From Cyanobacteria bacterium FACHB-471 (GTDB lineage Bacteria > Cyanobacteriota > Cyanobacteriia > Elainellales > Elainellaceae), in assembly GCA_014695345.1 (NCBI GenBank), contig JACJOC010000077.1:124001-188000 (forward strand): DNA of 64,000 bases, in the 5' to 3' direction. Below are positions 10,381-61,473 of the stretch, in pieces. Every line of letters begins with the position of its first letter. The stretch's first letter is position 1. The notes below the pieces were generated by a model. That model did no database searches and was not told the origin of the DNA. It saw only the letters and a program-made list of their open reading frames with translations. The translations under genes and the position numbers were made by a program.

Positions 10381-11580
10381 TTGGACATTTATCAAACGGG
10401 CATCCGTCCTCTTCTATTTTCCGGCTTAAAGGCAGATCCAGAATGGCTGCATCAGCAAACAATTAAAGTATTTAGCTGGCTGAGCCAAAATCGCGATCAT
10501 GACCCTCCGCACTGGCTCTATCAGCAAATTCAGAATGCCTACTGCTTTGAACATCCTTGCCTAAAGCAAAAGCTATGGGATCTGGAGGTCACAAACCCAG
10601 TCGGGTTAGCGGCTGGCTTTGATAAAGATGGTCTGGCAGCTGGCATTTGGTCTGGTTTTGGTTTTGGTTTTGCTGAGTTGGGAACGGTAACGCTGCAGCC
10701 GCAGCCTGGCAACCCGCGTCCCCGGTTGTTTCGCCTGCCTCTAGATGGGGCGGCTCTCAATCGGATGGGATTTAATAACCAGGGCGCAGCTGCAATGGCG
10801 GTAAGGCTGGAGGCAATGGGCGATAAACAGGCGATCGCCACTAGGGTAAAAGGGCAAGGAAATGAGGGTTCTAGTTCCTTGCTGGTTGCCGATCGCCCCA
10901 ACATTCCTTTGGGCATTAACTTAGGTAAGTCTAAATTAACACCGCTAGAGTCGGCTGCCGCAGATTATCTGGGCAGTTTTCGTTTGCTGAAAGACTGGGG
11001 AGACTATTTTGTCGTGAATGTGTCTTCTCCTAATACGCCAGGGTTGCGATCGCTTCAAGCAACAGAACAACTCGAACCAATCTTGCAGGTGCTACAGCAA
11101 GAAAATGACCAGCGCAAGCCAATTCTAATCAAAATTGCGCCCGATTTGGAATGGGAAGCGATCGCCGACATCCTGAACTTGGCACAAGCACATCAGCTGG
11201 CGGGCATCATCGCCACCAACACGACCATTCGCCGTGATGGGCTTAAAACCCAAATTATTAGAAAAACCGGTAAGCCCGTCACTGAAGAAGCAGGCGGCAT
11301 TAGCGGTGCTCCCCTACGTCAGCGTTCGACCGAAGTGATTCGCTTTGTTTACCAGCAAACTCAAGGAAAGCTTCCCATTATTGGCGTTGGTGGTGTCTTT
11401 ACCGCAGAAGATGCCTGGGAAAAAATTACTGCTGGAGCCAGTCTGGTGCAGGTCTATACAGGCTGGATTTATGAAGGTCCAGCCATGGTGCGCCGCATTT
11501 TGGAAGGGCTGGTACAAAAACTAGAGGAACATGGCTTAACCCATCTTCATGAGGCGATCGGGCTCAGAAATGTGGATTGA
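10381..11580 (+). CDS. pyrD: Dihydroorotate dehydrogenase (quinone), class 2
   Basis: Fourth step of UMP synthesis: FMN-dependent oxidation of dihydroorotate to orotate, with electrons passed to quinone. The N-terminal extension (about 1-50) is the membrane-associated, quinone-tunnel part that defines class 2. Motifs: [13 protein letters not shown] (72-84), [10 protein letters not shown] (127-136), [14 protein letters not shown] (213-226, with S216 as the catalytic base) and [12 protein letters not shown] near the C-terminus for FMN phosphate binding. Length 399 is somewhat longer than E. coli PyrD because of a loop near 150-175. The start is a TTG. No in-frame ATG exists between it and the upstream stop at 10333, and [13 protein letters not shown] matches how cyanobacterial homologues begin. 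A repeat element directly follows the stop. Confidence 0.96.
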
Positions 11581-11582
11581 GC

Positions 11583-11716
11583 CCGGAAGCCATTTTGTGA
11601 AGAAGCCCTATCTGATGTACGGGCGAAGCATTCGGCAAAAGAATTGTGCTTCAGGGGCAAAGGATTGTAACCGAATGCTTCGCCCTACCGATACCGCTGC
11701 TTTACAGACGGGTTTG
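11583..11716. repeat. MITE-like palindromic element, copy 1
   Basis: Core inverted repeat GGGCGAAGCATTCGG (11621-11635) / CCGAATGCTTCGCCC (11671-11685) is perfect over 15 bp with a 35-nt loop. Similarity to a second copy at 61280-61412, in opposite orientation, covers about 130 bp including imperfect outer ends (GGAAGCCATTTTGTGAAG and CTTTACAGACGGGTTTGA). It starts within 5 nt of the pyrD stop, and no ORF is inside. Confidence 0.8.
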
Positions 11717-12009
11717 ACATTAGCAGGGTCAAGCCCCCAACCTAAAATTTTTACCTTGATTCAATCCATGTTCGCTTATGGGATACGAAGCCTTGCGACT
11801 AAAGCTTAGCTACTGGAGGCGAAGAATCAACAATCTTTAGTGATCTTGCGAGAGCAAATGATCTATCCTCTGGAAAATTTTGTCAAAAAAACCGCCTCTA
11901 TCTAAAGAATGAGCCTTTTTCTTCCTTGATCCCCTTGCAAACTGCCACTCACAATTGGACACTGGACTTGGGAATGGAATGGCAGTTAAGAGGCAGTTAA
12001 GAGGTCATT
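11717..12009. other. glgC upstream spacer
   Basis: 293 bp without a gene. Just before glgC the words GGCAGTTAAGAGG and CAGTTAAGAGG repeat directly, and the second copy supplies the AGAGG that serves as the glgC ribosome-binding site. Confidence 0.4.
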
Positions 12010-59575: not shown

Positions 59576-59678
59576 AGCACAGATATCTCAACTCTCGAGC
59601 TATGCTAGGTCAACATAGACTAGCGGACATTTTTGTTGTTCACTAGCCAAGTTATTTAAAGTGTGGGGTTTCAGATTC

Positions 59679-61274
59679 ATGAGGGTTCTGCTGCTTTATC
59701 CATTGTTTCCTAAAACCTTTTGGTCATACGAAAAGATTTTAGAATTAGTCAATCGTAAGGTTCTGCTGCCGCCTCTGGGTTTAGTGACCGTGGCAGCAAT
59801 CTTGCCTCAAGAATGGGAGTTTAAGCTAGTAGACCGCAACGTCCGGGCAGTTACAGAGGCAGAGTGGGAATGGGCTGAGGTTGTAGTTATCTCTGCGATG
59901 ATTGTGCAAAAGCAAGATTTGCTCGACCAGATTCGGGAGGCAAAGCGGCGCGGCAAGCGAGTTGCGGTGGGCGGCCCTTACCCCACTTCTGTGCCAGAGG
60001 AACCGTTAGCTGCCGGAGCAGATTACCTGATTCTGGACGAGGGCGAGATTACGCTGCCGATGTTCGTTGAGGCGATCCAGCGGGGCGAATCACAGGGCAT
60101 TTTCCGCACAAATGAGAAACCCGATGTGACGACTACTCCCGTTCCTCGGTTTGACTTGCTGGAGTTTGCCGCTTACGACTCCATGTCGGTGCAGTTTTCG
60201 CGGGGATGCCCATTTCAGTGTGAGTTCTGCGACATTATTGTCCTCTATGGACGCAAACCGCGCACCAAAACCCCGGCTCAGTTGTTGCAGGAATTGGATT
60301 ACCTGTATGAACTCGGCTGGCGACGCAGCGTGTTTATGGTAGATGACAATTTTATCGGCAATAAGCGCAACGTTAAGCTATTTCTTAAAGAACTGAAAGT
60401 CTGGCAGGCAGAACACCAGTATCCTTTCGCCTTTAACACGGAAGCATCCGTTGACTTAGCGCAAGATCAGGAGTTGCTGGACTTGATGGTCGATTGCTTC
60501 TTCAATGCGGTGTTCTTGGGCATTGAAACGCCAGACGAAGACAGTTTGGCAATGACTAAGAAGTTTCAGAACACGCGCAGTTCCCTTGCTGAATCGGTAG
60601 AGATCATTACTAGAGCAGGTTTGCGGGTAATGGCGGGATTTATCATCGGGTTTGATGGGGAGAAGAAGGGGGCGGGCGATCGCATCGTTCGCTTTACCGA
60701 GCAAACCACCATTCCCACTACCACCTTTGCCATGCTGCAAGCACTGCCCAACACGGCGCTATGGCATCGTTTGGAGAAGGAAGGGCGACTCCGAGCAGGC
60801 AAAGACGGCAACATCAATCAGACAACTCTGATGAACTTCGTTCCCACGCGTCCGCTCGAAGACATTGCCAGAGAATACGTCGATGCCTTCTGGCGGATTT
60901 ACGAACCCAAAACCTATCTCGATCGCACCTACCGCCACTTCCTCATGCTGGGTGCGCCCCGCTGCAAACCTCCCGCCAAGTTGCCGAGTTGGATTGACCT
61001 TCGAGCATTGCTCACGGTCTGCTGGCGGCAGGGCATCAAGCGCAACACTCGCTGGATGTTCTGGCATCACCTGTTTGGCATTCTCAAACACAATCCCGCC
61101 GTGTTTGAACACTACCTCGCTGTCTGTGCCCACAACGAACATTTTCTAGAATATCGCCAAATCGTCAAGGATGAGATCGAGGCGCAACTTCAGGAATTCT
61201 TTGCAGAAGAAGCGCGTTTACAGCCCAGCGCAAGCTTGCAGGAAGATGAAAAAACGGTAGAAGCACTGGTATAG
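59679..61274 (+). CDS. B12-binding-domain radical SAM protein (DUF4070 type)
   Basis: 531 residues from the ATG at 59679; a GTG at 59661 is in frame. The cobalamin-binding-like Rossmann domain is at 1-130 (PPLGLVTVAAILPQEWEFKL, VGGPYPTSVPEEPLAAGADY). The radical SAM core follows with CPFQCEFC (the CxxxCxxC iron-sulphur cluster ligands) and SRG just before. LGIETPDEDSLAMTKKFQNT and FIIGFDGEKKGAGDR are DUF4070-family markers. The product is unknown; HpnP hopanoid methylase is in the same broad class but begins differently. A MITE-like repeat begins 5 nt after the stop. Confidence 0.85.
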   Translation: MRVLLLYPLFPKTFWSYEKILELVNRKVLLPPLGLVTVAAILPQEWEFKLVDRNVRAVTEAEWEWAEVVVISAMIVQKQDLLDQIREAKRRGKRVAVGGPYPTSVPEEPLAAGADYLILDEGEITLPMFVEAIQRGESQGIFRTNEKPDVTTTPVPRFDLLEFAAYDSMSVQFSRGCPFQCEFCDIIVLYGRKPRTKTPAQLLQELDYLYELGWRRSVFMVDDNFIGNKRNVKLFLKELKVWQAEHQYPFAFNTEASVDLAQDQELLDLMVDCFFNAVFLGIETPDEDSLAMTKKFQNTRSSLAESVEIITRAGLRVMAGFIIGFDGEKKGAGDRIVRFTEQTTIPTTTFAMLQALPNTALWHRLEKEGRLRAGKDGNINQTTLMNFVPTRPLEDIAREYVDAFWRIYEPKTYLDRTYRHFLMLGAPRCKPPAKLPSWIDLRALLTVCWRQGIKRNTRWMFWHHLFGILKHNPAVFEHYLAVCAHNEHFLEYRQIVKDEIEAQLQEFFAEEARLQPSASLQEDEKTVEALV

Positions 61275-61279
61275 TACCA

Positions 61280-61412
61280 AATCCGTCTATAGAGTAGCGA
61301 TGCCGGTAGTGGCGAAGCATTCGGTTACAATCCTTGCAATTGAAGCACAATTCTTTTGCCGAATGCTTCGCCCGTACACCCAATAGTGCTCCTTTACGAA
61401 ACGGATTCCGTA
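61280..61412. repeat. MITE-like palindromic element, copy 2
   Basis: Inverted relative to copy 1 at 11583-11716. The core pair is GGCGAAGCATTCGG (61313-61326) and CCGAATGCTTCGCCC (61361-61375). Loop and outer flanks also match copy 1 (for example CAAAAGAATTGTGCTTCA on the minus strand). Confidence 0.8.
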
Positions 61413-61442: not shown

Positions 61443-61473
61443 AAAAAGGAGGGGCTTTTAGCCCCTCCTTTTT
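61443..61473. terminator. Bidirectional terminator between radical SAM gene and chlH
   Basis: Perfect 14-bp stem AAAAAGGAGGGGCT / AGCCCCTCCTTTTT (61443-61456 and 61460-61473), loop TTT. Confidence 0.9.

Follow-up and report, generated by a model that had tools for sequence, protein, structure and literature searches.

A precedent for a GTAG repeat nested in a palindrome is published: GTAG-15 dimers lie inside longer palindromes in A. variabilis (Di Nocera et al., PMC3733652). REPs have been defined by a stem of 7-20 bp with a loop of 2-5 nt, or by a bulged second stem (PMC6006769). At MaOC1 of Microcystis aeruginosa PCC 7806, a 152-bp border repeat is located 14 bp downstream of a stop codon (PMC7935541), and Nezha (Zhou et al. 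2008) is cited in PMC10969869 and PMC3733652 as a cyanobacterial MITE. Here we analyzed two copies of a short palindromic element in one window, by which we mean the whole 64,000-nucleotide stretch of DNA under study. Our preferred reading, to which we give a probability of nearly nine in ten, is that they belong to a family of non-autonomous MITEs derived from an IS630-family insertion sequence (IS) and carrying a GTAG-tagged core as payload. The MITE is real and mobile, but it is assembled from known kinds of parts.

The two window copies and their family

The first-pass annotation had described two elements of about 130 bp in opposite orientation with a common core and loop, an inner inverted repeat perfect over 14-15 bp, imperfect outer repeats, and starts within 5 nt of a stop codon. 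All of these statements held. Both elements are real and 134 bp long (Table 1), and a BLAST alignment covering the arms, core and loop gave 84% identity (E 3.6e-34), while the flanks of the two copies are unrelated to each other. The outer arms of both copies form imperfect inverted repeats; the inner repeat is perfect over 15 bp in copy 1 and over 14 bp in copy 2, in which a single G at the foot is replaced by T. Copy 1 follows the pyrD stop codon at the distance given in Table 1, and copy 2 starts at 61277, 2 nt past the stop of its upstream ORF (61274), the radical SAM gene. The positions of the target-site duplication at copy 1 read CC (11582-11583) and CA (11718-11719), TA having been lost on both sides, and copy 1 looks older by this loss.

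Table 1. Features of the two window loci, and terminal repeats found around the core in other genomes
Feature	Position in window	Strand	Remarks
MITE copy 1, 134 bp	11584..11717	+	refined boundaries; degenerate ends
Core stem-loop of copy 1	11621..11685	+	15-bp perfect arms 11621-11635 / 11671-11685, 35-nt loop
MITE copy 2, 134 bp	61277..61410	-	ends CCAAATCCGT / ACGGATTCCG; TA at 61275-61276 and 61411-61412
Core stem-loop of copy 2	61310..61373	-	GTAG tag at 61306-61309
pyrD (dihydroorotate dehydrogenase), upstream of copy 1	10381..11580	+	named by translation and first-pass annotation; stop codon precedes copy 1 by 3 nt
Radical-SAM-type gene, upstream of copy 2	59661..61274	+	named by translation and first-pass annotation; stop TAG abuts TA target
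Perfect 14-bp hairpin AAAAAGGAGGGGCT-TTT-AGCCCCTCCTTTTT with T-run	61443..61473	.	downstream of copy 2, with convergent genes on either side; outside MITE
Terminal repeat around core CTAGAACACCGATTCAGTA			Symploca, PMM_0008, Sphaerospermopsis
Terminal repeat around core GGTGCATCCCA			Hormoscilla; related GGAGCATCCCA in Oscillatoria
Terminal repeat around core CAATACTGCTCGGTTAAG			Phormidium

A BLAST search of the element's own genome returned 67 matching segments, and at least 28 full or near-full copies could be aligned. Their junction-to-junction length is near-constant (133-137 nt across the 28 aligned copies), and the copies differ from one another at roughly 10-25% of the sequence, a divergence that gives no sign of recent transposition. 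Further copies were present in both same-genus genomes (G001 and G002). The possibility that only the two window copies exist thus fails, and the earlier proposal of a MITE-like family is supported: the family is multi-copy and nearly uniform in length, has TA at its junctions, is missing at orthologous sites and is matched by an IS630 transposase element. Chance palindromes were rejected on the copy number and the alignment E-value. Chance or a segmental duplication of two loci is, as an explanation, next to impossible: we found no support for it, and it is opposed by the strength of the match despite unrelated flanks and by the dispersal of at least 28 copies. We found no convincing arm-bearing copies without the core in the own genome, no match to the element in the plasmids or viral contigs searched, and no Rfam match in a scan of the window.

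Two copies had further peculiarities. In L016 (G000:C104:300800-300980), another small repeat with GTTGGGTTCTGCTGCGC is seemingly inserted in the outer arm, and in L046 (G000:C105:107826-107927) a shortened loop is itself palindromic (CACAAGAATTGTG), giving a nearly continuous hairpin.

Junctions and the partner IS630 element

The consensus ends of the family read TA-CGGAATCCGTTTCGTAAAGAAGCACTAT... and, on the opposite side read inwards, TA-CCAAATCCGTCTGTAGAGTAGCGGTAT.... The search for target-site duplications proposed in the first-pass annotation was fruitful, with TA at both junctions in 13 of 28 copies and at one or more junctions in 26 of 28. Beyond the TA, either flank reads CTNA; among 39 sides with TA, 92% have T at -3 and 87% have A at -1. 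We therefore infer that the target is the palindrome CTNA-TA-TNAG.

We searched the joined flanks of 20 copies in G001 and G002, and 16 pairs aligned. Comparable orthologous sites in the two congeners were without the element, demonstrating insertion polymorphism between congeners. At the site of L010 in G001, the left flank passes straight through TA with no element, and the right flank has diverged; at pyrD (L001), L008, L011 and L020 the flanks are conserved in congeners and the element is missing. A fully clean empty site, with identical flanks and a single TA, was not found among the 16 aligned pairs because the congener spacers have diverged. In G002, the spacer at the site orthologous to copy L009 (L223, G002:C164) contains a palindrome that stands alone and is core-like but different (GTAAGGGCGTAGCATTCGG...).

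A search with the arms only matched repeated sites in G007, a genome of the same family. There, an arm directly follows the stop codon of a transposase fragment assigned to DDE_3 (E 3e-12), a membership that makes the transposase IS630-type. Motifs such as SPELQPAERLW in this protein fit the IS630 family. One deleted IS copy with both ends was also present in G007. Contig C115 of the own genome opens inside the final 25 residues of the transposase and continues into the end ...ATCCGGATTCCGTA, whereas contig C15 opens inside the opposite IS end, TACGGAATCCGGCTGTGGAGTAACACTAT, and continues into an ATG reading frame, MGRTITLAKHLSSEGLKTRY.... The two contigs start in opposite IS ends, and so an IS630 element with matching ends occupies an assembly gap of this genome, known from its two ends at the contig edges; the complete copy is not assembled there. 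If complete across C15/C115, the partner would have the ends TACGGAATCCGG...CCGGATTCCGTA. C15 (L299) and C115 (L294) each start inside one half of an IS630 of the same kind, at which the assembly broke, and the IS at this break is probably either multi-copy or the join between the two contigs.

The MITE arms and the IS ends have 20-23 of about 31 positions in common, and none of 5000 shuffles was as good. The family is a 134-bp unit with TA junctions, and its two ends show a relationship to the two ends of an IS630-type element of the same genome, and the matching transposase that the first-pass annotation had suggested looking for is a DDE_3 protein whose element has both halves at contig edges. 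Other DDE_3 copies in the own genome (L180-L184) were rejected as partners, as they are without these ends.

We propose that the IS630 transposase would bind the MITE ends of ~30 bp in trans, cut the unit out and insert it at the TA within CTNA-TA-TNAG, duplicating TA, with insertion targets of the form CTNATATNAG. The 65-bp GTAG stem-loop, a widespread cyanobacterial repeat, would have been captured as payload in place of the transposase gene.

The GTAG-tagged core

The centre of the element is a 65-bp stem-loop with 15-bp arms, GGGCGAAGCATTCGG, and a loop that spans 33-37 nt among cores. This core is a separate unit, distinct from the IS630-like arms. In the own genome, L051, L053, L056 and L057 carry the core but not these arms, and a scan with an exact pattern recovered at least 116 core stretches; the genera represented include Microcystis, Anabaena, Sphaerospermopsis, Oscillatoria, Hormoscilla, Symploca and Phormidium. 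When the class was sampled evenly, the exact GTAG-tagged core was present in 15 of 290 genomes (11 of 131 genera), compared to zero matches for a reversed control pattern. Elsewhere, the core lies inside at least three other terminal-repeat contexts (Table 1). One exact copy was found outside cyanobacteria, in a MAG labelled Calditrichaceae (L067 2016-2080), as a result of either transfer or binning contamination. In L025, L026 and L028, the loop alone is inverted while the arms and the GTAG/GTAC tags keep their orientation, suggesting inversion between the 15-bp arms.

We considered whether the core itself might be the mobile unit, moved like a REP or REPIN by a Y1 HUH transposase, with the outer arms being only its preferred target palindromes. 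The core is indeed found alone and within different arms, 105 of the 116 copies listed from other genomes carry the GTAG tag on one side only (8 have it on both sides, 3 on neither), and the A. variabilis GTAG-15 dimers are likewise placed inside palindromes (PMC3733652). In this genus, however, the core is conserved jointly with the arms in a unit of fixed size (134 bp) bounded by TA junctions, and these arms are IS630 ends. None of the three Y1 transposases found in the own genome has a core copy in its fetched flanks, and all three carry IS200-like motifs, and the loop is far longer than in described REPs. These observations make core-only mobility very improbable. That the core generally targets palindromes was rejected separately: complementary outer flanks above the 99% null were seen in only 11 of the 116 cores listed, several of these being neighbouring cores or other repeats, so this is a minority pattern and the other 105 listed cores are without complementary outer arms.

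A more far-reaching reading is that the GTAG stem-loop may be an independently mobile single-strand unit that, repeatedly and across cyanobacteria, inserts into or is taken up in the middle of unrelated MITEs of DDE transposons, which then amplify it. We regard this as a tentative proposal that may well be wrong; if true, the core would be a mobile element that spreads as the payload of other mobile elements.

Gene ends and comparison with described repeats

None of the 28 copies lies inside an ORF of at least 100 aa, compared to 79% of the TNATA sites in the window, with the qualification that under our simple ORF call an insertion splitting a gene could escape detection. Neighbouring gene ends are 3' ends in 38 of 54 cases (background 39%, P 3.5e-6), convergent genes flank 12 of 26 copies (background 10%, P 2e-6), and the preference for stop-proximal sites raised in the first-pass annotation was evident, a stop codon being 14 nt or less away in 10 of 28 copies, compared to 6% of background target sites; the background for these figures is 51 sites of one window, which makes the P values indicative. 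Four copies have the TA directly 3' of the stop codon. The enrichment at gene ends and stop codons is explained by the target motif, as TNA-TA contains TAA or TGA followed by TA, and by purifying selection; target choice and selection against harmful insertions are enough to explain it. Under the proposed mechanism, copies would persist mostly 3' of genes, the motif holding TAA/TGA plus TA and insertions in or before genes being selected against.

The suggestion that the elements serve as transcript 3' ends was not supported for intrinsic termination. No T-run (U-tract) follows the MITE hairpins, and a terminator scan returned no terminator-like site in the elements. Copy 2 sits between the stop codon and a separate native hairpin (61443-61473), which resembles a bidirectional intrinsic terminator in its sequence. 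A broader alternative is that the family consists of conserved RNA or terminator motifs kept for a function at gene ends and is not mobile DNA. The enrichment at 3' ends and between convergent genes would suit it, as would the stable RNA folds (z about -3.5 to -5.9 vs shuffles). We nevertheless consider it highly implausible, since the elements are not kept at orthologous positions, have neither a U-tract nor an Rfam match, leave a native terminator downstream of copy 2, and possess a TA target motif and IS630 ends. It is possible that a MITE hairpin at a 3' end stabilises the mRNA or affects its processing; the long hairpin that the element adds to the 3' UTR of the RNA is probably a side effect.

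Taken as an IS630-derived family, these elements tie a MITE to a partner transposase and a target motif in a cyanobacterium and explain stop-codon proximity without invoking function. The core, whose 15-bp arms recur in many genera, is a single palindromic cassette lodged within several transposon-like ends that are unrelated to one another, and so provides a concrete test case for the ways in which REP-like repeats join with MITEs and spread.

Compared by description only, the core is like the cyanobacterial REPs GTAG-12, -15 and -16 (PMC3733652) in being a palindrome with GTAG at one end. Unlike REPs as defined in PMC6006769, it combines a 15-bp stem with a loop of more than 30 nt; it fits the GTAG superfamily in its tag and departs from it in loop length, and because of the latter we have not filed it as a REP. 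The border repeat at MaOC1 (PMC7935541) contains the same inverted repeat, GGGCGAAGCATTCGGA, a 13-base core arm; unlike in this MITE, the Microcystis cores examined are flanked by different sequences that bear no relation to these IS630 ends. Nezha is a cyanobacterial MITE of similar kind, as the papers that cite it describe it. Like type I MITEs of the IS630/Tc1-mariner kind, the family is short and non-coding, with TA junctions and ends in common with an element encoding an IS630-family transposase. Unlike typical members of that group, it holds a discrete GTAG-tagged stem-loop, not a plain internal-deletion remnant, and shows a strong preference for the palindromic CTNA-TA.
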